Shown here piece after piece: positions 5,140-61,544 of a stretch of DNA of 64,000 nt; the stretch's first letter is position 1, and each line of letters opens with the position of its first letter. The notes under the pieces were generated by a model, which saw only the letters and a program-made list of their open reading frames with translations, ran no database searches and was not told where the DNA came from. This DNA is from Actinomycetota bacterium (GTDB taxonomy: Bacteria; Actinomycetota; Actinomycetes; Nanopelagicales; Nanopelagicaceae): positions 1 through 64,000 of the forward strand of contig VGAE01000002.1 in NCBI GenBank assembly GCA_016870975.1, read 5' to 3'. Both the position numbers and the translations under genes were made by a program.

Positions 5140-5538
5140 TTACTTGATTAAATCCTGCAGAAGACTTTTTACTCTCGCTTCGATTTGATCTCGAATTCTT
5201 CTCACATCTTCAATGCTCTTACCTGCAGGGTCATCCAAAACCCAATCTTCGTATCGCTTTCCAGGAAAGAATGGACATGCATCTCCGCACCCCATTGTTA
5301 TGACTACATCGCTGGCTTGTACTGATTCGGTTGTGAGAACATTTGGAGAACGCCCAGAAATATCGATTCCCTTTTCTCTCATTGCCTGAACTGCTATTGG
5401 ATTAATTGAATCCTTCGGCGCGCTACCAGCCGAGTAAACATTTAATTTCTGGCCGCCTAAATGTTCTAGGAAGCCAGCCGCCATTTGAGATCTACCGGCA
5501 TTATGAACACATACAAAAAGCACACTTGGTTTACTCAT
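5140..5538 (-). CDS. arsC: Arsenate reductase, low-molecular-weight phosphatase family
   Basis: Cytosolic enzyme reducing arsenate to arsenite. The catalytic P-loop C10-x5-R16 lies in VLFVCVHNAGRSQ, and the general-acid aspartate is in LDDPAG (102-103). C84 and C88 (MGCGDACPF) are candidates for the thiol relay of thioredoxin-coupled ArsC. Length, 132 residues, is normal. The ATG at 5538 overlaps the stop of the aquaporin gene as ATGA, so the two are translationally coupled. The pair matches the AqpS-ArsC layout of some bacteria, in which arsenite leaves by the channel instead of an ArsB pump. Confidence 0.9.
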   Translation of the reverse strand: MSKPSVLFVCVHNAGRSQMAAGFLEHLGGQKLNVYSAGSAPKDSINPIAVQAMREKGIDISGRSPNVLTTESVQASDVVITMGCGDACPFFPGKRYEDWVLDDPAGKSIEDVRRIRDQIEARVKSLLQDLIK

Positions 5539-6194
5539 CGCTGAATCGCACGCTCCTTAGACAGATAATTGTTTATAGCGAACGCGACCAAGCCACCCAA
5601 TGCCTGGACGGGAATGAATAAGAGAAGTGAGTTGGGGCTAATTCCAGCGAGTGACTCCGTGAACATACGACCAAGAGATACTGCAGGATTCGCAAATGAG
5701 GTTGAAGAGGTGAAAAAATATGCAGAAGCAATCCAGAGGGAAACTAGAGTTGCGCGTTGTTGCGTCTCGATTCTTTTCCAACTCGCTACTGCAATAAGCA
5801 CTAAGCCAGCACTGGCGACTAATTCGGCAGCTAGAAGATTGGTACTGTTTCGCTCGATAGCCGAAATTGATAGTAATGGTCGGTCAAATAAACTTTGAGC
5901 AATCAATGAACCAGAGATAGCCCCTATAAGTTGGGCAAACACATAAAAAATAAATTCCTGAGGCCTTAATTTTCGATTTAAAAGAATCACCATAGAAACG
6001 ACCGGATTGAAGTGAGCGCCGCTTATCTCTGCAAAAAGGTTAATGGCAATGTAGAGGGCTGCGACTGTGCTGATCATGTTGACTAGAAGCCATAGGGCGC
6101 CGTCTTTAGTCCAAATAGAGGCCATATGAGCAGAACCAATAACAGACGTTGTGATTAGCGCTGTTCCAAAAAACTCTGCGAAAAGTTTTTTCAT
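5535..6194 (-). CDS. aqpS: MIP-family channel (aquaglyceroporin / arsenite channel, AqpS-like)
   Basis: A 219-residue channel with six hydrophobic segments and the two half-helix loops of the MIP family. The first NPA box is altered to NPV (63-65, GAHFNPVVS). The second is intact (NPA 169-171, followed by R176 of the selectivity filter). MIP proteins pass water, glycerol or uncharged arsenite. Coupling to arsC argues for arsenite efflux (inference). ATG 6194 was chosen because MKKLFAEFFGTALI is the usual family start and because TATATT lies exactly six bases upstream. The longer frame to 6227 adds no homologous sequence. Confidence 0.87.
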   Translation of the reverse strand: MKKLFAEFFGTALITTSVIGSAHMASIWTKDGALWLLVNMISTVAALYIAINLFAEISGAHFNPVVSMVILLNRKLRPQEFIFYVFAQLIGAISGSLIAQSLFDRPLLSISAIERNSTNLLAAELVASAGLVLIAVASWKRIETQQRATLVSLWIASAYFFTSSTSFANPAVSLGRMFTESLAGISPNSLLLFIPVQALGGLVAFAINNYLSKERAIQR

Positions 6195-6200
6195 ACAAGT

Positions 6201-6206
6201 AATATA
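6201..6206 (-). promoter_or_regulatory. -10 hexamer TATATT, leaderless start of aqpS-arsC
   Basis: Minus strand TATATT, six bases (ACTTGT), then the aqpS ATG at 6194. The 20-bp palindrome at 6232-6251 lies 26-45 bases further upstream, where a regulator could act. Confidence 0.55.
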
Positions 6207-6231
6207 CACTTCAAGGCTCAGCAGCATCGTT

Positions 6232-6251
6232 ACCTAAAATGTATTTTAGGT
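6232..6251. repeat. Perfect 9+9 inverted repeat upstream of aqpS-arsC (candidate operator)
   Basis: ACCTAAAAT and ATTTTAGGT flank a 2-bp centre (GT). The palindrome sits just upstream of the aqpS-arsC promoter and touches the TAA stop of the GNAT gene. Its AT-rich composition and lack of a T-run argue for a protein-binding dyad over an intrinsic terminator. No arsR gene is in the window, so the binding protein is unknown. Confidence 0.45.
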
Positions 6252-6952
6252 TAACTTGAAGTTTTATTTATGAAGGTGAAATCAAAAAGCTTTTCATAAC
6301 CTATGTTTTGATAGAGCTTAACTGCGCCTAAATTAGAACTTGTCACTCCAAGGCAAACTTGTTTAATTCCAAGCGTTGCAAGCTCTTTCGATACCACTTT
6401 CATTAAGTGCTTACCCAAGCCTTTATTGCGGCGAGCGCTATCTGTGACCACGGATGCGACAACATGCTCACCAGATTGCCACTTACAGATTGCAGCCACT
6501 CCTTCTAGCTCGCCAGAGTCACTTCGAATGCTGCTCCAACGAACAATCTCCGGATTACCTGGAGATACCGATAGATCGCGGCCGTGCTCCTTTAAAAAAT
6601 CCGCAATCTCTTCATCTTTTGGTTCTTCAGTTAACTCAAGGCGCGGCTCGCTTGGCACATGGAGTGAATAGGCTTCCCATTCATTCTTTTCGTACTTTGT
6701 AAGTTCCTTTAACCAGCTTGAGCTTCGTTCAAAACTAATTTTCGACCACTCCAGCCTTAACGGAGCTCGCTTTCCGAGAGCAAAAACAAATTTTCCATTA
6801 TCTTCTCGACAGATTGAAACACCCGATTCATCAATCAATAATTCAACAAACTTTTCTTTCGGTATCCAAAAGCGAATCAGCGTTGATGATTTCCAATCGT
6901 TCTTCAAAAAATCGAGCGCTGCAGAGTAATCTGTAATTGAGCGAGTGCTCAT
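6251..6952 (-). CDS. GNAT-family N-acetyltransferase
   Basis: A 234-residue protein. The C-terminal half (about 125-225) carries the GNAT fold: VVASVVTDSARRNKGLGKHL is acetyl-CoA-binding motif A (R/Q-x-x-G-x-G type) and NLGAVKLYQNIGYEKL is motif B. The N-terminal 120 residues look like a diverged second lobe. It transfers an acetyl group from acetyl-CoA; the acceptor is unknown. ATG 6952 was preferred over a TTG at 6961 because it forms an ATGA overlap with the upstream small gene. Confidence 0.82.
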   Translation of the reverse strand: MSTRSITDYSAALDFLKNDWKSSTLIRFWIPKEKFVELLIDESGVSICREDNGKFVFALGKRAPLRLEWSKISFERSSSWLKELTKYEKNEWEAYSLHVPSEPRLELTEEPKDEEIADFLKEHGRDLSVSPGNPEIVRWSSIRSDSGELEGVAAICKWQSGEHVVASVVTDSARRNKGLGKHLMKVVSKELATLGIKQVCLGVTSSNLGAVKLYQNIGYEKLFDFTFINKTSS

Positions 6953-7146
6953 GCATACCAAGAGAAAACGGCTACTGCGATTACTGCAACTACTATCAAC
7001 CAGCGAAAGAATTCATCCTCGGCTCTTCGATGGTTTCGACTCTTGGCATCCGGATTGAGATAGGCGCTACCCATTTTTTGATACGCCCTAAACCCGGCAA
7101 GGATCGTGAAAGCGATCACGCTGTAAAGGAATGTCTTTAAATCCAT
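6949..7146 (-). CDS. Small two-helix membrane protein, unknown function
   Basis: A 65-residue protein starting MDLKTFLYSVIAFT. One hydrophobic helix lies near residues 4-19 and another at the C-terminus (WLIVVAVIAVAVFSW), joined by a charged loop (KSRNHRRAEDEFFR). ATG 7146 has a good ribosome site (AGGAG, six bases away), and the stop overlaps the GNAT start as ATGA, so it is very probably translated. I do not recognise a family. Coupling to an acetyltransferase is the only clue. Confidence 0.6.
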   Translation of the reverse strand: MDLKTFLYSVIAFTILAGFRAYQKMGSAYLNPDAKSRNHRRAEDEFFRWLIVVAVIAVAVFSWYA

Positions 7147-7230
7147 CGTTGGCTCCTGACTCCCCAAGTATGCCAAGCCCTGGAAGAATCTGCGCCATGG
7201 CCCGTATTTACCACGAAATTTTGGAAAAGG

Positions 7231-7236
7231 TAGACT
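7231..7236 (+). promoter_or_regulatory. -10 hexamer TAGACT, leaderless start of the PLP enzyme gene
   Basis: TAGACT, six bases (TAGTAA), then ATG 7243. No Shine-Dalgarno sequence is present between the hexamer and the start. Confidence 0.55.
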
Positions 7237-7242
7237 TAGTAA

Positions 7243-8388
7243 ATGTTTGAGAAATCGGCTTACCAAAAAAGCGTCCCGATTGAAGAAGAATGGTCTGAAG
7301 AAACTGTCGTTGTCCAGGCGGGGCGACCAGAGCGGGTTCCTACGGCGCCGATGAATACGCCAATTACTTTAAGCAGTACTTACATCCATCCTGCGCTAAT
7401 TGGATATGCCAGAGATGGCAATGAGGTTTGGGCAGCCCTTGAAATCGCCCTTGGCGAATTAGACGGTGGATACGCAATTTCATTTGCCTCAGGGCTAGCG
7501 GCGGCTAGCGCAATAGCAGAGTTAATTCCTGCCAGTGGAACATTGGTTCTTCCCCGTGCCTCTTACTACGGCGTTAAAAATATCTTTGATATTTTAAGTA
7601 AACGCGGACAAGTAAAACTTCGCTTTGTGGATGGTGGCAATACTGAAGAAGTTATTGCAAATATCCCAGGCGCTGACATGGTTTGGATGGAGTCAATAGC
7701 CAACCCCACATTGGTGGTTGCTGATATTCCAGCTATTGCTGCTGCAGCAAAAGCCAATGGCACAATCTCAGTAGCTGATGCAACCTTTGCCACTCCAATG
7801 CGGCAACACCCAATTGCGCTTGGTGCCGACATCGTCCTTCACTCTGCGACTAAGGCCATCGGTGGACATCTAGATTTATTGCTAGGAATCGTAGTTTGTA
7901 AAAGTAAAGAACACGCTGCCGTCATCGATTCCTATCGCCATGATCGCGGTGCAACCCCAGGATCTCTAGAAGCCTATTTAGCGCTCCGCGGACTCAGAAC
8001 ACTCTCAATACGAATAGATAAATCCGAAGAGAGCGCGCTGGAGCTGTCCAAGCGATTAAAAGCTCATCCAAAAGTTAAAGCAGTTTATTACCCGGGCCTT
8101 GAAGGTGATTCACAATATGCAATTGCTCAAAAGGTTCTTCCTAAAGGCGCCGGCTCTATGGTTTCTTTTGAAATCGATGCTTCCCCAACAAAAGTAGATG
8201 AGATGCTCGGTAATTTAAAACTTATTGCTCATACAACAAGCCTTGGCGGAGTTGCTAGCTCTATCGAACGTCGAACTCGTTGGCCAGCTGAGGAAGCGGC
8301 TGGAGTGCCTATGACGCTCTGTCGATTCTCAGTTGGAATTGAAAATGTTGAGGATATCTGGCGCGATCTCAAATCTGTATTAGGGTAA
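7243..8388 (+). CDS. Cys/Met-metabolism PLP enzyme (cystathionine gamma-synthase/lyase family)
   Basis: A 381-residue cytosolic PLP enzyme of trans-sulfuration. The Schiff-base lysine is in HSATKAIGGH, the substrate/PLP region is YARDGNEVWAALEIALGE, FASGLAAASA is the glycine-rich phosphate segment, and SLGGVASSIERRTRW is the C-terminal substrate loop. The family includes MetB, cystathionine gamma-lyase and O-acylhomoserine sulfhydrylases; sequence alone does not separate them here. It stands alone between a divergent small-protein operon and a truncated ccdA. Confidence 0.85.
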   Translation: MFEKSAYQKSVPIEEEWSEETVVVQAGRPERVPTAPMNTPITLSSTYIHPALIGYARDGNEVWAALEIALGELDGGYAISFASGLAAASAIAELIPASGTLVLPRASYYGVKNIFDILSKRGQVKLRFVDGGNTEEVIANIPGADMVWMESIANPTLVVADIPAIAAAAKANGTISVADATFATPMRQHPIALGADIVLHSATKAIGGHLDLLLGIVVCKSKEHAAVIDSYRHDRGATPGSLEAYLALRGLRTLSIRIDKSEESALELSKRLKAHPKVKAVYYPGLEGDSQYAIAQKVLPKGAGSMVSFEIDASPTKVDEMLGNLKLIAHTTSLGGVASSIERRTRWPAEEAAGVPMTLCRFSVGIENVEDIWRDLKSVLG

Positions 8389-8475
8389 AAAGGTCCAAAT
8401 CTCTACGGCGAGACTTCCATTAATTTATATTGATGAGAAGTCGAGTAAAGAGAATTCTTCTATTTCGCAATTTTT

Positions 8476-8847
8476 CTACGGTATGAAATTTGAATCTATC
8501 TCCCAGGGGCGAATTGGTGAGTTATCCAGAATCCCGGTTTGTAAATCTTTATCCCAGCCGGCAATAATGACAACGCCCACCGCAATGAAAACCCAACCTA
8601 AACTCCGTCGGAAGATTCCTTCAGATTTAATAGCCCAGCCCGCCGATTTAATTAATCGCTGACCAGTAAGGGCCACTGCCAAGAGAGTTCCATAAAGCCC
8701 GAGCGAGTAGGCGAACAGAAGTGCTAAGCCTTCGGCAAAGGAAGCTGGCTGCACGGTGACAATTACATATGCATACAGAGGACTACATGATGAGAAGACT
8801 GGTCCAAGAGCCGCGCCCGTAAGGATTGCTCCAGCTTTTCCTTCTCG
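8476..8847 (-). pseudogene. CcdA/DsbD-like membrane protein, 3' remnant
   Basis: The frame reads GAALGPVFSSCSPLYAYVIV then VQPASFAEGLALLFAYSLGL and ends with one more hydrophobic helix. This is the second half of a CcdA-type electron-transfer membrane protein (family signature GPVFSSCSP, with one of its cysteines). In frame, an amber codon at 8848-8850 blocks it, and none of the three minus frames upstream to 9003 shows hydrophobic or homologous sequence, so the N-terminal half is missing. A short product from the GTG at 8754 is possible but would lack the cysteine loop. Read as a decayed gene. Confidence 0.7.
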
Positions 8848-8991
8848 CTATCGAGCCTTACTCAATAGAGGCGTGCTCCTACTTTGTAATGAAAGATGCA
8901 CTTGACGGATATAAGCGACGTTTCACACACCCTGCCCGGTTGAATTATCTTGCAAGGCAGAGCACCCCAGCGTTTACACGAGCCGCCTCAT

Positions 8992-8997
8992 TAGAAT
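8992..8997 (+). promoter_or_regulatory. -10 hexamer TAGAAT, leaderless start of the nitroreductase gene
   Basis: TAGAAT, six bases (CTTGCC), then ATG 9004. Near-consensus -10 with no room for a ribosome-binding site. Confidence 0.55.
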
Positions 8998-9003
8998 CTT
9001 GCC

Positions 9004-9762
9004 ATGGACACAAGTCAAGGTGATGCCAAGTGGATGTCGCAATTCATGGCATCGAGACGAACCACTAGAGACTTTTTACCAATACCTGTCCCCCATGAAA
9101 TTTTGATGCAAATCCTTACGGACTCTTTGACTGCTCCAAGTTGGTCGAACACTAGACCATTTAAAGTAGCAATAGCAACGGGCAAAGTGAGAGATCAGAT
9201 CAGCAATGAATTCCTATCACGCTGGTCGATCTTGTCAGCAATTATGCGCAAGGGAGTAAAAAACAAGTTACGGCTTCTTTACTCTCGCTACGGCTTGCCT
9301 ACTAGCAACAGAACAATTGTAAAGCCCTACGTAGCAGAGCTTAGGCCAAGAGCAGAGAGGGTTGGCAAAGAGCTCTATGAATTGTGTGGTATCAAACGTG
9401 GCGATCGTGCAGCCCGAGATAGGCAATGGGGGAAAAACTATGCATTTTTTGGGGCACCAGTTGAGTTATTCGTTTATATCCATAAAAGTCTTCATATTTA
9501 TGCTGCTTCTGATGCTGGCTTGATGATGCAAAACTTAATGTTATCGGCGCATGCTCATGGTTTAGGAACCTGTGCACAAGGAGCTGTGAATATTTGGGAT
9601 GACGTAATTCGCAAAGAATTTTACATACCAAAGAAATACCGACTCCTATGCGGCCTCGCAATCGGATATCAAAGTAATGATCCAGTTAATTCCTTTAGCG
9701 CTCATAGGCTTGATGTTCATGAAATAATTGTTCTGCCAAAAAATAAGACAGACGTTGAGTGA
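9004..9762 (+). CDS. Nitroreductase-family FMN oxidoreductase
   Basis: A 252-residue flavoenzyme. SRRTTRDFLPIPVP is the N-terminal FMN-phosphate motif, APSWSNTRPF the next conserved loop, and LMMQNLMLSAHAHGLGTC the helix and turn that close the FMN site. Members reduce nitro groups, quinones or enones with NAD(P)H; the substrate is unknown. It is longer than the minimal 200-residue enzymes because of a basic insertion around residues 80-140 (KNKLRLLYSRYG and following). It lies between a ccdA relic and an ABC operon, with no partner gene. Confidence 0.85.
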   Translation: MDTSQGDAKWMSQFMASRRTTRDFLPIPVPHEILMQILTDSLTAPSWSNTRPFKVAIATGKVRDQISNEFLSRWSILSAIMRKGVKNKLRLLYSRYGLPTSNRTIVKPYVAELRPRAERVGKELYELCGIKRGDRAARDRQWGKNYAFFGAPVELFVYIHKSLHIYAASDAGLMMQNLMLSAHAHGLGTCAQGAVNIWDDVIRKEFYIPKKYRLLCGLAIGYQSNDPVNSFSAHRLDVHEIIVLPKNKTDVE

Positions 9763-9909
9763 ATCTGCGTTATCAAGCTTTATGACAAGTTCGTCTTCGT
9801 GGGTGCTGGGGGCCTCTGGTTGTAGGTGAGATTGAATTCGCGCGCGAAATAAAAATCATTCTGGTATCGAAGAAGAATTGAGCATTGGAGGAGACAGTGT
9901 GTGATTCTT

Positions 9910-10722
9910 TTAACCCTTCAGTGCTCCTGACATAAGTCCACGAAGGAAATAACGGCCAAGGATTATGTAGACCAGAACTGTCGGAAGTGAGGCAATGAGT
10001 GCGCCAGCCATCTGCACGTTCCACTGGACTATCTGGCTTCCCGCGATGTTGTTGAGCGCTACGGTTACTGGCCAAGAAGATGGACCAGTGAGGACGACTG
10101 CGAAGAGGAAGTCATTCCAAATCGAAGTGAATTCCCAGATAATGGCAACGATGAAGGCCGGGATAGATATCGGAAGAACCACTCGAAAATAAGTGCCAAG
10201 CATCCCCGCTCCGTCGATTTTGGCCGCCTCTATCAACTCAGACGGAACAGATGCATAGTAGTTACGGAATATGAGGGTCATGATTGGAAGCCCATAAATA
10301 ACGTGAACCAGAATCAATCCGGGGATACCGCCGTAGATTCCAAGCTCGCGCATGGTGGTAACGAGCGGAATCAAGATTGATTGATAGGGAATGAACATCC
10401 CGAAGAGGATTACCGGAAATACGATATCTGCGCCCGGAAACTTCCATTTAGCCAAGACGAAACCATTCATGCTGCCTAGGAATGATGCGATCACGGCAGC
10501 AGGGATGACAAGTTGAAAGCTATTGATGACCGAAGGACCGAGTTTCTCCCAAGCAAGGGAGTAATTGACAAAGTCAAAAGACTTCGGCGACGACCACATC
10601 GTATCGAGTGAGATATCACCAAGTGGCTTAAGTGAGGTCACTATAACCACATAGACTGGAAGCAAGAAGAAGATGAGGAAAAAGATCAGTGCTGGATATA
10701 GAAGGAGGCGAGACTTTTTCAT
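9910..10722 (-). CDS. Carbohydrate ABC transporter permease (MalG/GtsC type)
   Basis: A 270-residue inner-membrane permease with six hydrophobic helices. The EAA loop that contacts the ATPase is EAAKIDGAGMLGTYFRVVLP, and the N-terminus (LLPVYVVIVTSLKP) is typical of the MalG side of family-1 sugar importers. ATG 10722 overlaps the stop of the other permease gene as ATGA. Third and last gene of the operon starting at 12937. Confidence 0.93.
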   Translation of the reverse strand: MKKSRLLLYPALIFFLIFFLLPVYVVIVTSLKPLGDISLDTMWSSPKSFDFVNYSLAWEKLGPSVINSFQLVIPAAVIASFLGSMNGFVLAKWKFPGADIVFPVILFGMFIPYQSILIPLVTTMRELGIYGGIPGLILVHVIYGLPIMTLIFRNYYASVPSELIEAAKIDGAGMLGTYFRVVLPISIPAFIVAIIWEFTSIWNDFLFAVVLTGPSSWPVTVALNNIAGSQIVQWNVQMAGALIASLPTVLVYIILGRYFLRGLMSGALKG

Positions 10723-11606
10723 GACTTTCGCTCCTGACGCATGGTGAAAATCAGGTAAGGAAGGATGACTATCGCGACGCTAAAAAGAATGTATGTCGCA
10801 AGAGTCGCGCCTTTGCCGAAGTTGTATGCATCAAAAGATGTCTGCCACATATATATTGCTGGGACATCAAGGGCGAGTTGTTTTCCTGCAATAGCAATAA
10901 TCAAGTCAAAGACTTTGAGTGAGATATGGCCAAGTATCACGATTGCAGATAGTGCAATAGGGCGCAGTTGTGGCAAGATCACATAGCGATAGATGCGCCA
11001 TTCCGATGCACCATCCACTCGAGCAGCTTCACGAGTCTCTTCAGGGATGCTTCGGATTCCTGCTAAGAAAAGCGCCATTGTGTAGCCAGCCATCTGCCAA
11101 ACCGCAGGCAGGGCGATTCCGGCCATCCCCCAGTTGGGAGTCAGGTGCCATTGATTGACCAAGGGATCAAGACCAACCTTTGTGAAGAGCAGATTAATTC
11201 CACTTATTCGATCATCAGTCGCAGGATTCATCAACCAGCGCCAGACAACACCCGTGACGATAAATGAAATCGCCATAGGTAGGAGATAAACGCTTCTGAA
11301 GAGTCCTTCGAATTTCAGTTTCTGATCCAGCAAGATTGCCAAAAGCAAACCTAAGAGTAGGCATGCAACCATGAAGACCACGGTGAAGATAAGAGAGTTC
11401 TTGATATCAATCTTGAATCGTTCATCGACGAGTAAGTCTCGGTAGTTCTGCAATCCGATGAAGTTGAAGTCAGGTGAGAGCGCTTTCCAATCGGTGAGAG
11501 AGATTCGAAAATTCCAACCGATGAAGCCATAGACAAAGACGGCGAGTGCGATAAGAGATGGTGCGGTCAAGAGCAAGCCTGGCATCCAGTCCTTGGCTCG
11601 CTTCAT
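10719..11606 (-). CDS. Carbohydrate ABC transporter permease (MalF/GtsB type)
   Basis: A 295-residue permease with six hydrophobic helices. EAA loop: EAARVDGASEWRIYRYVILP. The N-terminal KDWMPGLLLTAPSLIALAVF and the WFNFRISLTDW-like segment fit the MalF/UgpA side. It follows the binding-protein gene by 62 bp and is coupled to the second permease. Confidence 0.93.
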   Translation of the reverse strand: MKRAKDWMPGLLLTAPSLIALAVFVYGFIGWNFRISLTDWKALSPDFNFIGLQNYRDLLVDERFKIDIKNSLIFTVVFMVACLLLGLLLAILLDQKLKFEGLFRSVYLLPMAISFIVTGVVWRWLMNPATDDRISGINLLFTKVGLDPLVNQWHLTPNWGMAGIALPAVWQMAGYTMALFLAGIRSIPEETREAARVDGASEWRIYRYVILPQLRPIALSAIVILGHISLKVFDLIIAIAGKQLALDVPAIYMWQTSFDAYNFGKGATLATYILFSVAIVILPYLIFTMRQERKS

Positions 11607-11668
11607 GGGATTCCTTACTAGTAAAAGAACTGGGAGCGACCCAAAGGCCGCTCCCAGTTGTTCAGTTA

Positions 11669-12937
11669 CTACTTACCTGAGTTTGTTGCGGCAGTAGCGA
11701 GCGCTGCTTGGAACTTCGCTACATCTTTATTCTGTAGGAGGAGGCCAAGTGCAGTGTCAATTTCTGCCTTCCATGCATTAGATGCAGTCACACCGTGAGT
11801 CAGTGATCCTGCAATCTTATTGCTACCCCAGTCATCCATCGCGGACTGGAGGTATGGAGGATAGATAGCCTTCTCGGCATCGCTACGTGCAGGGATTGAA
11901 CCCTTCTTCACGTTGAACGCATCCTGTCCTGCTGCAGATCCAGCGACCTTGAGCCATGCAATCGATGCATCACGATTCTTCGCACCTAGTGGAAGTGTAA
12001 ATGAATCTGAGAGGAACTGGAAAGTTCCCGCTGTGCCTGGAGCTGGTGCCCAGGTGTAACCCTCTTGTTCAACAAGTGAGTTATCTACGCGGAAATAACC
12101 TTCTGCCCAGTCACCCATGATGTTGAAAGCTGCCTTGCCGTCAATGACGAGCTTGGAGGCATCCTGCCAACTAAGGCTTGCTGCATCAGAGTTTGTGTAA
12201 GTAAGGACCTTCTTGAAGGTGTCAAGTGCGCCCTTAACTTCTGCAGAGTTCCAACCAGTTGATCCATCCCAGAGGCCGTTGTAGGCGTCAGTACCAAGAA
12301 CGCCAAGAAGAACGGTCTCGAATAGATGTAGTTGTGTCCACTGCTCACCAAGTGCGAGTGGAGTAACTCCTTTTGCCTTCAACTTATCTGCTGCGGCAAA
12401 GAAATCAGCCCATGAACCTGGCATCGAGATGCCATTGTCAGCGAGGACCTTTGGATTCCCCCACATGACGTTCGCACGGTGGATGTTTACTGGAACGGAG
12501 TAAATCTTTCCGTCGACAGTGATGAGCGGAAGAAGTGTTGCTGGCATGACATCACGCCATCCCTCCTCGTCATAGAGGAAGGAGAGATCCTCAAGTTGAC
12601 CTGCGGTGATGTAATCCATCAACTCCGCGCCAGCGTGACCCTGGAATGAATCTGGTGCTTCGCCTGCTTGTAGACGAGTAGCTAGGACAGCGCGAGCGTT
12701 TGTACCTGCACCACCTGCAACAGCAGCGTTGACGAATTCAACCTCTGGATATTCCTGCTTGAACACTTCAACGAGTGCGTTGAGGCCTGCTTCTTCACCT
12801 CCACCGGTCCACCAAGAAAACACTTCTACTTGACCGCTTGCGTTGCCGCCCTCATCTGAGCTGCAGCCCGTTGCAGTCAAAGCAATTGAAGCCGCGATGG
12901 CGATTGCGCCAAATAGCCTCGACGTTCTTAACTTCAT
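11669..12937 (-). CDS. Glucose/sugar ABC transporter substrate-binding lipoprotein (GtsA-like)
   Basis: A 422-residue family-1 solute-binding protein. The signal ends in a lipobox (ALTATGC), so it is a lipoprotein on the outer face of the membrane. The mature text VEVFSWWTGGGEEAGLNAL, then RLQAGEAPDSFQGHAG and IMGDWAEGYF, matches the glucose/mannose-binding GtsA branch better than maltose binders. ATG 12937 follows AAAGGG at about six bases. No ATPase gene is near; Actinobacteria often share one MsiK-like ATPase between sugar importers. Expression is probably high and carbon-regulated (inference). Confidence 0.92.
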   Translation of the reverse strand: MKLRTSRLFGAIAIAASIALTATGCSSDEGGNASGQVEVFSWWTGGGEEAGLNALVEVFKQEYPEVEFVNAAVAGGAGTNARAVLATRLQAGEAPDSFQGHAGAELMDYITAGQLEDLSFLYDEEGWRDVMPATLLPLITVDGKIYSVPVNIHRANVMWGNPKVLADNGISMPGSWADFFAAADKLKAKGVTPLALGEQWTQLHLFETVLLGVLGTDAYNGLWDGSTGWNSAEVKGALDTFKKVLTYTNSDAASLSWQDASKLVIDGKAAFNIMGDWAEGYFRVDNSLVEQEGYTWAPAPGTAGTFQFLSDSFTLPLGAKNRDASIAWLKVAGSAAGQDAFNVKKGSIPARSDAEKAIYPPYLQSAMDDWGSNKIAGSLTHGVTASNAWKAEIDTALGLLLQNKDVAKFQAALATAATNSGK

Positions 12938-12962
12938 ATTTGCCCTTTCGAATTATTTAAAT

Positions 12963-12978
12963 GGGGGCTGCTGCCCCC
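12963..12978 (-). promoter_or_regulatory. GC-rich hairpin in the leader of the glucose-type ABC operon
   Basis: GGGGGC-TGCT-GCCCCC forms a 6-bp all-GC stem with a 4-base loop, 26 bases upstream of the binding-protein ATG. No T-run follows on the minus strand, so it is more likely an mRNA-stabilising or regulatory leader element than a terminator. Confidence 0.4.
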
Positions 12979-13308
12979 CCGTGTTACTTTGAATCGGAGC
13001 AAATCTATCTCTTGATCCAAGATTATGGAAACCTTCAGTCTTGTTATTTGAGAGGGCTTAGATAGCGATTCGGTAAAAAGTCCGAGCCGTGAAAGAGGCC
13101 CACTTCAGTACCCTTAGCTAAGTGTCATAACCATCTAACCAGCAATCGGATCCGCAGGCTTCCGGCCCGGCAGAGCTCATGGCCGAGGCGACCGCTCAAG
13201 TCGTATCCAGCGAAGTCTCAGGCGGGCGACTTTCCGGAGATGTATCAATATTGCAAGGTTAAAGACTTAGCGTCCAAAGCGAATTGAAATGTCTGAAAAG
13301 AGTGAATC
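12979..13308. other. Intergenic stretch between the ABC operon and tRNA-Val, largely unexplained
   Basis: About 330 bp. The part nearest the ABC operon should hold its promoter; a minus-strand TAATCT at 13020-13025 is a possible -10. The segment around 13145-13230 is visibly richer in G and C than its surroundings (AGGCTTCCGGCCCGGCAGAG is a sample). It has one 43-codon open frame on the plus strand, from CCA at 13132 to a TAA near 13262, without a recognisable product. It could be a decayed gene or a structured RNA; I cannot decide. Confidence 0.4.
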
Positions 13309-13383
13309 TGGTGGGCGCTGAGGGTTTTGAACCCCCGGCCTACTCGGTGTAAACGAGCCGCTCTACCACTGAGCTAAGCGCCC
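13309..13383 (-). tRNA. tRNA-Val (anticodon TAC)
   Basis: Minus strand: acceptor GGGCGCT pairs with AGCGCCC, the D arm is AGCTCAGTGGTAGAGC, the anticodon loop TTTACAC reads TAC, and the T arm is GGGGGTTCAAAACCCTC. The CCA end is encoded (13309-13311). TAGACT at 13394-13399, overlapping the TAG stop of the peroxiredoxin gene, may serve as -10. Confidence 0.97.
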
Positions 13384-13396
13384 TAAGTGCTAAAGT

Positions 13397-13855
13397 CTAT
13401 AACGATGCGAGTGCGCTCTTGTAATCAGCAAGATTTCGCGCTTCCGCTGGGCTATTTACCACGCTCCAACGGACGATTCCGGCTTTATCAATGATGAATG
13501 TTCCACGAAGTGCAAGTCCGCGTTCTTCGTTGAAGACGCCGTACTTTTTCGCGATTTTGCCATGTGGCCAGAAATCAGAGAGAAGTGGGAATTGATAACC
13601 CTCTTTTTCGGCAAAAACTTTGAGTGAGTAAGCAGCATCGCATGAGATTGCTAATAATTGAACTTTGTCGTTCTGGAAAAGGGAAATGTCATCGCGAAGT
13701 GCGCAAAGTTCCCCGGTACATGTGCCAGTGAAGGCGAATGGGTAAAAAACGACCACGACAATTTTGTTCCCACGGAAAGATGAGAGCTTTACTTTTTCGC
13801 CATTTTGATTAGTTAGTTCGAAATCTGGCGCTTCTTGACCAATAGTTATTTTCAT
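13397..13855 (-). CDS. Peroxiredoxin (AhpE-like, two-cysteine)
   Basis: A 152-residue thiol peroxidase that detoxifies H2O2 and organic peroxides. The active-site loop is PFAFTGTCTGELCALRDD: peroxidatic C46 preceded by the P-x-x-x-T motif, and C51 four residues later in the position of the resolving cysteine of BCP/PrxQ. Mycobacterial AhpE is one-Cys. ATG 13855 was chosen because MKITIGQEAPDFEL is the natural start and overlaps the DUF3052 stop as ATGA. The order peroxiredoxin-DUF3052-aceE parallels Rv2238c-Rv2239c-aceE. Confidence 0.92.
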   Translation of the reverse strand: MKITIGQEAPDFELTNQNGEKVKLSSFRGNKIVVVVFYPFAFTGTCTGELCALRDDISLFQNDKVQLLAISCDAAYSLKVFAEKEGYQFPLLSDFWPHGKIAKKYGVFNEERGLALRGTFIIDKAGIVRWSVVNSPAEARNLADYKSALASL

Positions 13856-14268
13856 TTCTTTCCGCTCTTCCTTGCGACTAATCGGGTCGCAGTCCAATCT
13901 TTCGAAACTTGCATGGTTGAGGTGAGGCTTAGCCCTGCTGTTGGCGCTGCATCTTGAATATCACTTGGCTCAACATGACCGTCGCGACCGACTTTTGGAG
14001 TGAGCAACCAAACTTGTCCGCCATCTGTGAGATAAGTAAGGCAGTCGACGAGTTCATCAACAAGATCTCCGTCGTCTTCGCGCCACCAGGTAATGACTGC
14101 ATCAACGACTTCTTTAGAATTCTCATCAAGGAGTTCATTGCCAGTAGTTTCTGCAATCTCTTTACTTAACTGCGAATCGGAATCATCAGCGAAACCCCGC
14201 TGAAGAACTAAAAATCCAGATTGGATTCCCAACCGGGCTGCTACGCCCAACCCCGCCGGGGTGCTCAA
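13852..14268 (-). CDS. DUF3052 family protein (Rv2239c-like)
   Basis: A 138-residue actinobacterial protein of unknown function. Conserved text: LGIQSGFLVLQRGFADD, AVITWWREDDGDLVDELVD, WLLTPKVGRDGHVEPSDI and AAPTAGLSLTS. The start is the TTG at 14268, giving LSTPAGLGVAARLGI: it follows a strong AAAGGAGAGG site at three to six bases, whereas the longer frame to 14307 has none. It is coupled to the peroxiredoxin gene and transcribed divergently from aceE. Confidence 0.88.
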   Translation of the reverse strand: MSTPAGLGVAARLGIQSGFLVLQRGFADDSDSQLSKEIAETTGNELLDENSKEVVDAVITWWREDDGDLVDELVDCLTYLTDGGQVWLLTPKVGRDGHVEPSDIQDAAPTAGLSLTSTMQVSKDWTATRLVARKSGKK

Positions 14269-14381
14269 TGACCTCTCCTTTCGAAAGCGAGTGAGATAAG
14301 TCCACACTTTGAGAGGAAGTTACGCAACTTAGCCTCGACTTTCGATTTCGCCCTATCGCCATTACGCGGAAGAATAGGGAT

Positions 14382-17114
14382 GTGAGCCTTGAGCAATCGC
14401 ACTCAATCCAAGATCTCCATCTTTCCCAGCTGGTTGATACCAACCCGGAGGAGACCCAGGAATGGCTCGCCTCTCTAGACGCGCTTCTCAAAAACGCCGG
14501 CACGGTAAGAGCTAGATATTTGATGCTCTCACTCCTTCGCGAAGCACATGATAAAAATATTGGTCTACCAAATCTTCGTGTAACCGATTACATGAACACT
14601 ATTCCACCGGAAGAAGAACCAGCTTTTCCCGGTGATGAATTTCTCGAGCGCCGTATTCGCGCATATGTTCGCTGGAATGCCGCAATCATGGTCCATCGTG
14701 CGCAACGTCCGGGTGTGGGAGTTGGCGGACATATTTCGACTTTTGCATCCTCGGCTGCGCTATATGAAGTTGGCTTTAACCATTTTTTCAAAGGTAAAGA
14801 ACATCCTGGTGGCGGAGACCAAATATTTTTCCAAGGTCACGCTTCTCCTGGAATGTATGCGCGTGCTTATCTTGAGGGGAGATTTAATGAACACCAACTA
14901 GATGGATTTAGACAGGAACTCTCTCACCCTGGCGGTGGGCTCTCTTCATACCCACATCCAAGATTGATGCCGGAATTCTGGGAGTTTCCAACTGTCTCAA
15001 TGGGCCTTGGTCCAATCAATGCTATTTATCAAGCGCGCTTTAATCGATATCTACAGAATCGTGGAATTAAGGACACCTCTCAACAACACGTCTGGGCATT
15101 CCTTGGCGACGGCGAGATGGATGAGCCAGAGAGCGTCTCTGCATTAACTCTCGCGGCGCGAGAAAATTTAGATAATTTAACTTTTGTAATTAACTGCAAC
15201 CTACAACGCCTTGATGGTCCGGTACGCGGAAATGGAAAGATTATTCAAGAGCTAGAGGCTCTCTTCACCGGAGCCGGTTGGAATGTATTGAAAGTTATCT
15301 GGGGTCGCGAATGGGATCCGCTATTTGCCAAAGATAATGAAGGTGCACTAGTTGATTTGATGAATCGAACCCCGGATGGAGATTTCCAGACTTTCAAAGC
15401 CGAGAATGGAAAGTATGTTCGAGATAATTTCTTCGGCCGTGATCCTCGCACCGCAGCAATGGTTGCTAGTTGGAGCGATGATGATATTTGGAATTTGAAG
15501 CGCGGCGGCCATGATTACCAGAAGCTATATGCCGCTTATAAATCAGCTACTGAATTTAAAGGTCAGCCAACCGTGATTCTCGCAAAAACAATTAAGGGTT
15601 GGACATTGGGTTCACATTTTGAAGGACGTAACGCAACCCATCAGATGAAGAAGTTGAAGAAAGATGACTTGATTGCGTTACGCGATCGCCTTTATCTGGA
15701 GATTCCTGACGATAAATTAGATGAGAAATTACCGCCGTATTTCCATCCCGGCGTGGAGTCTCCTGAATTCAAGTACATGATGGAGCGCAGAAATTCGCTT
15801 GGCGGTTCAATTCCAAAGCGACGCAGCAAATCCCGCGCACTTCCACAACCAGATGATTCGCATTATGAGGTAGTAAAAAGAGGTTCTGGTCATCAGGAAG
15901 TCGCAACTACTATGGCATTTGTACGTTTACTTAAAGATCTTGCGAAAGACCAAGGTCTCGGAAATCGAATCGTTCCTATCATTCCGGATGAAGCGCGCAC
16001 TTTTGGTATGGATTCTCTCTTCCCAACAATGAAAATTTATTCACCTCATGGCCAGAAGTACACGGCGGTTGATCGAGAGTTGATGTTAAGTTACAAAGAA
16101 TCGACAACTGGAGTGATTCTTCATGAAGGTATAAACGAAGCTGGTTCAACTGCTTCATTTACTGCCGTTGGAACTTCATACTCAACCCACGATGAACCGA
16201 TGATTCCGGTTTATATCTTCTATTCCATGTTTGGCTTCCAACGTACCGGTGACGCTTTCTGGGCTGCTGCTGATCAGATGGCTCGCGGTTTTGTTTTAGG
16301 CGCAACCGCGGGGCGAACAACTCTAAATGGCGAAGGTTTACAGCATGAAGACGGCCATTCTCATTTACTTGCCTCTACCAATCCCGCAGTAGTTGCCTAC
16401 GATCCGGCATTTGCCTTCGAAATCGGCCATATCGTTAAAGATGGTCTTCGTAGAATGTATGGTGAAGATAGCGAGAATATTTTCTATTACTTAACGGTTT
16501 ACAACGAGCCATATCTTCAGCCAGAAGAGCCGGCAAACCTTGATGTTGATGGGTTATTGCGCGGAATTTATCTTTATTCACAATCAGCAAAACCAGGCAG
16601 AAAAAAGCGCCGTGCAAATATCTTGGCCTCTGGCGTCGCAGTAAATGCTGCGCTTAAAGCACAGAAATTGCTCGCTGATGATTGGGGTATACAAGCGAAT
16701 GTTTGGAGCGTAACTTCTTGGAACGAATTGCGCCGAAATGGACTTGAAGTAGATCGTCATAATCTTCTAAATCCTCAAGATAAGCGCCGCGCCTACTTAA
16801 CCGAGAAATTGGATGGATTTAGTGGGAGCGTTCTTGCGGTAAGCGATTTTATGAGAGCGGTTCAAGACCAGATTTCTCCTTGGGTGGAAGAGGGATTCGC
16901 ATCCCTTGGTACAGATGGCTTTGGTTTATCAGATACACGTGGCGCACTTCGTAGACATTTCAAAGTTGACGCAGAGTCAATTGTCGTTGGAGTTTTAGCG
17001 CAACTAGCTAAGGAAGGAAAGCTCTCCGAAAAGAAGGTTGAGAAGGCTATAAGTAAATATCGCTTAGCCGACGTAACTGCGGCAGATCCGGGTAACACTG
17101 AAGGCACTGGATGA
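14382..17114 (+). CDS. aceE: Pyruvate dehydrogenase E1 component, homodimeric
   Basis: A 910-residue thiamine-diphosphate enzyme that decarboxylates pyruvate and passes acetyl to the E2 lipoyl domain. The ThDP/Mg motif is [10 protein letters not shown] (near residue 245) with the N-residue about 25-30 further on ([11 protein letters not shown]). [20 protein letters not shown] and [15 protein letters not shown] are characteristic AceE segments. Length is normal. GTG 14382 is used, preceded by AGGGA. E2 and E3 genes are not in the window. Immediately downstream lies a decayed glgB tail. Confidence 0.96.
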
Positions 17115-54751: not shown

Positions 54752-54986
54752 AGCGAGCCAATGTCCGATTTGCCCGATAATCCAAATTATTTACCCTAAA
54801 TAACCGTCATTGTGAAGAATTTATCGTGAGTTTAGGTTGAACAACTCGCGAGTAAGTAGGACGCTTTCCCTCATTGCGGCCGAAGTCGTCCATTCCAGGG
54901 CGGAGAAAGTCACAATGGCTCACTTCAAACCGAAGTTTGAGCAAACCGAACGACTCATTTATTGAGCGAAGCCCACGGAGGCCAAT
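54752..54986 (+). promoter_or_regulatory. Promoter and leader region of the actinorhodopsin gene
   Basis: A 235-bp non-coding stretch, long for this genome, between murI and the rhodopsin. It holds the palindrome CTCGCGAG (near 54846), a hairpin GCTCACTTC-AAACC-GAAGTTTGAGC (54918-54942) and a 9-base direct repeat CAAACCGAA (54926-54934 and 54942-54950, 16 bp apart). GGAGG at 54977-54981 is the ribosome site. No -35/-10 pair can be fixed with confidence. The layout suggests a leadered, regulated mRNA, unlike the leaderless neighbours. Confidence 0.45.
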
Positions 54987-55775
54987 TTGTTAACAACCAT
55001 GGACTTAACTGCAACGCAGTGGAGCACCGTATATAACGTCCTTTCCTTTGGACTTATCTCGATGCTCGCGACAACGGTCTACACCCTTGTCTCAACAAAC
55101 CGCGTTCTACCAAAGTACCGAAATGCTCTAGTTCTATCCTCGATGGTTACATTCATCGCAGGATACCACTACATCCGCATTTTCGACTCATTCCACGCAG
55201 CATCAATGGTGGAAGGAAGCGTTGGCAAGGTAATAACAGCAGGTCACCCAGATGCATTTAACGAGGGTTATCGTTATGTTGACTGGATCCTTACTGTTCC
55301 GCTTCTTCTTGTTGAAGTAATCGCAGTTCTTGCTCTTGCAAGAGAAACTTCAAAGTCTTTGATTACCCGTCTCGTTCCTGCATCTGCAGCGATGATCGCT
55401 CTTGGTTACCCAGGCGAGATTTCCGCAGTTCAAGGCACCAAGATTCTCTACGGTGTTCTCTCGACAATTCCATTCCTCTATATCCTCTACATCCTATTTG
55501 TAGAGCTAAGCAAATCCCTCGATCGTCAGCCAGAAGGCGTCGCCGCAACAGTCGGTCGACTACGTCTCCTTTTGGTTGCTTCATGGGGCGTTTACCCAAT
55601 TGCTTACCTACTTCCAATTATCAACGCAGATGGCGCAGCAAGTACGGGCGCATATGTCGGTCGCCAGGTTGGCTACACGATCGCAGACATTCTCGCAAAG
55701 TGTGTCTGGGGTCTAACCCTCGTGAAGATCGCAAGAATGAAGTCGATTGCAGAGGGAATGAAGGACGATCACTAA
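54987..55775 (+). CDS. Actinorhodopsin, light-driven proton pump
   Basis: 262 residues, seven helices, retinal protein of the xanthorhodopsin/actinorhodopsin clade. Helix C reads YRYVDWILTVPLLLVE: proton acceptor D99, T103, donor E110, with L107 at the spectral-tuning site (green-type). H61 pairs with the counter-ion, and K238 in DILAKCVWG binds retinal. G156 in YGVLSTIPF occupies the place of a bulky Trp in bacteriorhodopsin, the gap through which xanthorhodopsin accepts a carotenoid antenna. TTG 54987 is the start: GGAGG is five bases away, while the next ATG is 17 away. An intrinsic terminator follows, so it is monocistronic. No retinal-synthesis gene is in the window. Confidence 0.97.
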   Translation: MLTTMDLTATQWSTVYNVLSFGLISMLATTVYTLVSTNRVLPKYRNALVLSSMVTFIAGYHYIRIFDSFHAASMVEGSVGKVITAGHPDAFNEGYRYVDWILTVPLLLVEVIAVLALARETSKSLITRLVPASAAMIALGYPGEISAVQGTKILYGVLSTIPFLYILYILFVELSKSLDRQPEGVAATVGRLRLLLVASWGVYPIAYLLPIINADGAASTGAYVGRQVGYTIADILAKCVWGLTLVKIARMKSIAEGMKDDH

Positions 55776-55792
55776 TTTTTAGTGATTTGCCT

Positions 55793-55820
55793 AAAAGGGC
55801 CTGGGAAACCGGGCCCTTTT
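55793..55820 (+). terminator. Strong intrinsic terminator of the rhodopsin gene
   Basis: AAAAGGGCCTGG and CCGGGCCCTTTT form a 12-bp stem (one T-G pair) closed by a GAAA tetraloop, followed by ACTTTTTGCTTTT. As a near-symmetrical stem it can also stop transcription from the convergent DUF2017 operon. Confidence 0.9.
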
Positions 55821-55850
55821 ACTTTTTGCTTTTAAGAACATAAATAGAAG

Positions 55851-61170: not shown

Positions 61171-61544
61171 TGGTGGAGGTGCCGGGAATCGAACCCGGGT
61201 CCTTCGACACTGATACAGGGCTTCTACGGGCGTAGTGTGCTAATCGCTTTCTCTGTCCCGGTTCTCACGCACACGTGTAACCGACGAACGCAGTTGTGTT
61301 AGATGTCCCTTCCGACAATCACAACGTTATCAGTTGGTAAGCCCTCTTACGACGTTGGTTCCTGAGTCGAAGGCGCGCTCAGGGCAACGGATTTCGGAGC
61401 TCGCTTAGGCAGCGAGAGCGAAATCAGACGAAGTTTTATCTGCGTCTGTATTTATGCGCGGGTTTTTGTGGTTAACGAGATCATCCCGGCTTCCTCGGCC
61501 CGCTTCCCCTGGCTCAACAATCGAAGTCGAGACCGTTCACCCCC
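61171..61544 (-). ncRNA. ssrA: tmRNA
   Basis: Rescues stalled ribosomes together with SmpB. Minus strand: 5' GGGGGTGAACGGTCTCGACT, 3' GGACCCGGGTTCGATTCCCG and an encoded CCA (61171-61173); acceptor GGGGGTG pairs with CACCTCC. The tag frame begins at GCA (61443-61441) and reads ADKTSSDFALAA, ending at TAA (61407-61405); ALAA is the expected degradation signal. TAGTTT at 61551-61556, six bases upstream of the 5' end, fits as -10. Confidence 0.97.

Follow-up and report, generated by a model that had tools for sequence, protein, structure and literature searches.

The gene described here encodes a rhodopsin and lies on the plus strand of the window, by which we mean the whole 64,000-nucleotide stretch that was analysed, in a Nanopelagicaceae (acI) genome of 1.45 Mb, 81 contigs, 88% completeness and 5.2% contamination. 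The features of the locus, with xanthorhodopsin abbreviated as XR, are the following.

54972..54981, plus strand: conserved CCCACGGAGG, which includes a ribosome-binding GGAGG (54977-54981); sequence reading and comparison with relatives
54987..55775, plus strand: actinorhodopsin gene, 262 aa, TTG start; ORF translation, Pfam and matches to solved relatives
55281..55283, plus strand: codon of D99, Schiff-base proton acceptor; residue numbering and homologue alignment
55293..55295, plus strand: codon of T103; residue numbering and homologue alignment
55305..55307, plus strand: codon of L107, green-type residue at the proteorhodopsin 105 position; numbering, alignment and PMC5301498
55314..55316, plus strand: codon of E110, proton donor; residue numbering and homologue alignment
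55452..55454, plus strand: codon of G156, carotenoid-site glycine; alignments to solved relatives and to homologues
55605..55607, plus strand: codon of Y207, equivalent of XR Tyr207; alignments
55617..55622, plus strand: codons of I211 and I212, hydrophobic floor of the putative carotenoid site (Kin4B8 Ser208/Tyr209); alignments
55698..55700, plus strand: codon of K238, retinal Schiff-base lysine; residue numbering and homologue alignment
55792..55821, plus strand: terminator-like hairpin directly after the stop, in DNA that overall holds no more hairpins than shuffles give

The open reading frame is a single frame with zero internal stops. Its product matches the Pfam family Bac_rhodopsin (PF01036) at 140.2 bits (E 9e-41), above the curated cut-off of 24.6 bits, and carries the Schiff-base lysine K238 in helix G, which together make it a type-1 microbial rhodopsin; an NCBIfam profile search of the protein returned zero matches. 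The TTG start is credible because CCCACGGAGG, a motif kept in most of the relatives compared, stops 5 nt upstream of it, whereas the next in-frame ATG, at 54999, would sit 17 nt away. A scan for sigma-70 promoters found nothing. Of 80 rhodopsin loci, many of them truncated at a contig end, 52 have murI in the retrieved flank of the gene. The window also holds a class A RNase P RNA (227-603) and a tmRNA (61171-61544), both on the minus strand.

Judged by its sequence, the protein is a member of the actinorhodopsin/xanthorhodopsin branch, with ActR, Gloeobacter rhodopsin (GR) and XR as its nearest solved relatives; identity over the aligned part is 54% to RlActR, 52% to psXR and GR, and 46% to XR and Kin4B8. 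In VIA-align, whose table we used for the overall fold only, the predicted structure reaches Z 26-28 against Kin4B8, GR and XR, with Kin4B8 as the best match (Z 27.6). The AlphaFold model, built from 27 sequences, is mediocre (pLDDT 70, worst at 140-158, the stretch that includes G156), so G156 was placed by sequence alignment at 46-54% identity. RlActR of Rhodoluna lacicola (PDB 9hfk; PMC11790970) is likewise an actinorhodopsin and has the same D/T/L/E/G/K residues, and its host also lacks blh (PMC7734400), but RlActR carries Phe where our protein has Y207, and its B-C loop is shorter.

All the residues of a DTE-type outward proton pump are present, namely the Asp acceptor D99, T103 and the Glu donor E110. 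In the alignment of the protein with 80 acI homologues of 71-97% identity, all 81 sequences agree at D99, T103, L107, E110, G156, Y207 and D234, so the pattern D99/T103/L107/E110/G156 is not due to chance; K238 is found in 80 of 81, the exception being a match that ends short of a clean C-terminus. The pump triad, the green-type L107 and G156, all named in the initial annotation, are numbered exactly and invariant. The same combination is common to the whole lineage and already published, the acI rhodopsins examined in PMC5301498 carrying the green-type leucine, hence it is not distinctive, and the rhodopsin sequence adds little that is new. In the expected mechanism, retinal bound to K238 would absorb green light, D99 would accept the Schiff-base proton and E110 would give one from the cytoplasmic side.

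The initial annotation had also equated G156 with the glycine at which XR holds its carotenoid, and had named alignment to XR and GR as the check. That equation holds, since G156 shares its column with the glycines of XR (Gly156), GR, Kin4B8 (Gly153) and indeed all five solved relatives. The preceding residue, 155 (55449-55451), is Tyr here, as in 55/81 of the acI sequences (Trp in 17/81, Phe in 9/81), whereas all five solved relatives have Trp. According to a 2025 study (PMC12308411), a carotenoid site is recognised first by Gly156/Gly153 and second by the tyrosine XR Tyr207/Kin4B8 Tyr204, and both marks of a carotenoid antenna are present in our protein as G156 and Y207. In the same study, 3-hydroxy carotenoids are linked to polar side chains at Kin4B8 208/209 and 4-keto carotenoids to hydrophobic side chains there, a rule based on few proteins. 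The protein has I211 and I212 at these positions and so lacks the Kin4B8-like mark of 3-hydroxy carotenoids; with G156 and Y207 present above an Ile-Ile floor, the site resembles that of XR and GR more than that of Kin4B8. GR (6nwd) and XR (3ddl) share the glycine, the tyrosine and the hydrophobic floor, but both are known 4-keto carotenoid binders, whereas the protein described here is a putative binder from sequence. Kin4B8 (7ytb, 8i2z), a xanthorhodopsin, shares the glycine and the tyrosine and differs in its polar Ser208/Tyr209 floor, which serves 3-hydroxy carotenoids. That an actinorhodopsin with the XR glycine can bind its native carotenoid has been measured for ActR-13023 of Candidatus Aquiluna IMCC13023 (its Gly145; PMC8113403), to which we liken our protein by description and not by sequence, and whose host, unlike ours, has blh. 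G156 would open a gap beside the retinal ring in which a carotenoid could dock.

The initial annotation had also called for a search of the rest of the genome for crtEBIY, carotenoid oxygenase and hydroxylase genes. Profile searches located a carotenoid cluster.

5411-15063 of locus L082 (G000:C3), contig C3: carotenoid cluster, in the order CrtA-like, CruF-like, CruG-like glycosyltransferase, CrtD-like desaturase, then crtE, crtI, crtB and the split cyclase crtYd/crtYc

The biosynthetic part of that search was therefore answered in the positive by crtE, crtI, crtB and crtYc/crtYd; no oxygenase of the Blh or RPE65 type and no CrtZ-type hydroxylase was found. The CruF-like gene scores above the cut-off of PF04240; the CrtA-, CruF-, CruG- and CrtD-like assignments fall below the NCBIfam equivalog cut-offs, so the exact functions of several of these genes are inferred. 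The likeliest product, as predicted from gene content, is a monocyclic carotenoid with its open end hydroxylated and glycosylated and perhaps a CrtA-type oxygen; salinixanthin or myxol would be closer analogues of it than zeaxanthin. A myxol-type ligand has precedent, since the chloride pump NM-R3 (9jow), a myxol-bound rhodopsin, is among the fold matches. Genes for metF and a CDP-alcohol phosphatidyltransferase are interspersed in the cluster. A thiamine riboswitch suspected by eye before a pnuC-like gene beside crtYc was rejected, as Rfam gave none at gathering score.

The suggestion that absorption may be widened to blue by a bound xanthophyll must be read in this light. The open carotenoid-site glycine supports an antenna as such, and a hydroxylated xanthophyll of the zeaxanthin or lutein type, possibly acquired from algae by uptake, would find G156 and Y207 in place; Kin4B8, 46% identical, uses 3-hydroxy xanthophylls efficiently (PMC12308411). 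The Ile-Ile floor in place of Ser-Tyr weakens the case for such a ligand, however, and profile searches of the 88% complete assembly for two families, neither of them of the P450 type, found no FA_hydroxylase (CrtZ type) and no FA_desaturase (CrtW/CrtR type). We therefore consider a hydroxy-xanthophyll antenna unlikely, though the cell might take up a foreign xanthophyll; any docked carotenoid would more probably be a product of the cell itself, monocyclic, glycosylated and possibly keto.

The source of the retinal is a separate question. In the assembly, 88% complete in 81 contigs with 5.2% contamination, we found no match to the BCD/Blh profile, no RPE65-type oxygenase and no close blh homologue; the BCD model itself works, as it matches 14 of 80 relatives. 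Since the assembly is incomplete and fragmented, blh could sit in the missing part and the species could make its own retinal as its blh-bearing congeners do. In the six blh loci that we read, blh is divergent and adjoins a crtYc/crtYd pair with an M23 peptidase behind. In our genome this peptidase lies mid-contig (C1:119963-120511, contig of 166 kb), and the genes to either side of it are collinear with those of G022, which bears blh; where G022 has the cassette, our genome has two other genes instead. Five other genomes of the clade (G003, G012, G013, G016 and G019) likewise have no cassette adjoining the peptidase, nor do G004, G021 and G024. Moreover, every blh-bearing genome within the CrtYc search has two CrtYc copies, whereas ours, like the blh-lacking congeners with a match, has one, so that it also lacks the second copy that relatives carry along with blh. 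An assembly gap is accordingly a highly improbable explanation. A CBM48 domain is encoded in a 115-aa frame at L151 7285-7632 (G000:C1), which resembles the start of a gene of about 790 aa that is full length in G003.

Because no known carotene-cutting enzyme was found, the usual locus is empty and blh-less precedents are published, the species probably uses scavenged retinal or a non-Blh, non-RPE65 enzyme, as far as gene content can tell. This is a known acI pattern: rhodopsin-bearing acI genomes without blh are described as widespread in PMC5301498, the blh-less Rhodoluna lacicola required added retinal, and Aurantimicrobium minutum, which has no blh either, produces retinal through an unknown pathway (both PMC7734400). 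The acI-A7 and acI-C1 genomes of Kang et al. 2017 (PMC5301498) similarly combine a Leu-type rhodopsin and crtEBIY with the absence of blh, but they are other strains, and the available part of that paper does not describe an empty blh locus or a separate second CrtYcd pair. The conclusion that the protein should pump protons in green light consequently stands as to type, that of a xanthorhodopsin-branch, actinorhodopsin-type proton pump with a green-type Leu; pumping itself would be conditional, since the searches turned up no known oxygenase that makes retinal and the place where its gene normally sits holds none.

An opsin without a retinal-making gene would also be explained if the protein were kept, free of retinal, mainly as a phospholipid scramblase, and a retinal-independent activity of this kind has been reported in vitro for a Nanopelagicus actinorhodopsin (PMC12805836). 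This explanation leaves unaccounted for that the Schiff-base lysine, acceptor, donor and pocket residues are all kept in the blh-less clade, whose eight members, none with a detected blh, group together in the protein tree. Between our gene and those of six close clade relatives without detected blh, dN/dS is 0.04-0.09 (0.01-0.25 among blh-bearing pairs), and the actinorhodopsin of the clade is thus under strong purifying selection. A heliorhodopsin, a second retinal protein, is retained as well in this apparently blh-less genome (G000:C4:85011-85730, L176) and would need retinal likewise. We regard a mainly scramblase role as quite improbable.

The reading that we favour, and consider likely, is an ordinary acI actinorhodopsin proton pump with a carotenoid-site glycine, which would probably run on retinal from outside or from an unknown enzyme and with which the cell's own carotenoid, if any, would be likelier to be associated than zeaxanthin or lutein. 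A bolder version is possible, though we consider it less likely than not: that a whole acI subclade lost or never had the retinal cassette and, under strong selection, keeps actinorhodopsin with its carotenoid site as a two-chromophore pump, fed by scavenged retinal and a home-made monocyclic, glycosylated, possibly keto antenna.

The gene is a new sequence of a well-known kind, and the comparison of retinal cassettes raises its interest slightly. acI bacteria are among the commonest cells of lakes, and the amount of light energy available to them hinges on whether they rely on neighbours for retinal and on the identity of the pocket carotenoid. The comparison separates carriers of the retinal genes from apparent non-carriers, so that retinal dependence becomes testable in pairs of close relatives. 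Congeners either have the whole cassette (blh and the second crtYc/crtYd pair, by the M23 peptidase) or lack all of it (loci L085-L090, L151 and L152). Cassettes in other genera of the family suggest loss, with gain elsewhere as the alternative. In G030, from another genus of the family, a rhodopsin match (5302-5988) and a blh match (6261-7037) are separated by about 270 nt (L175, G030:C9:1-9000).
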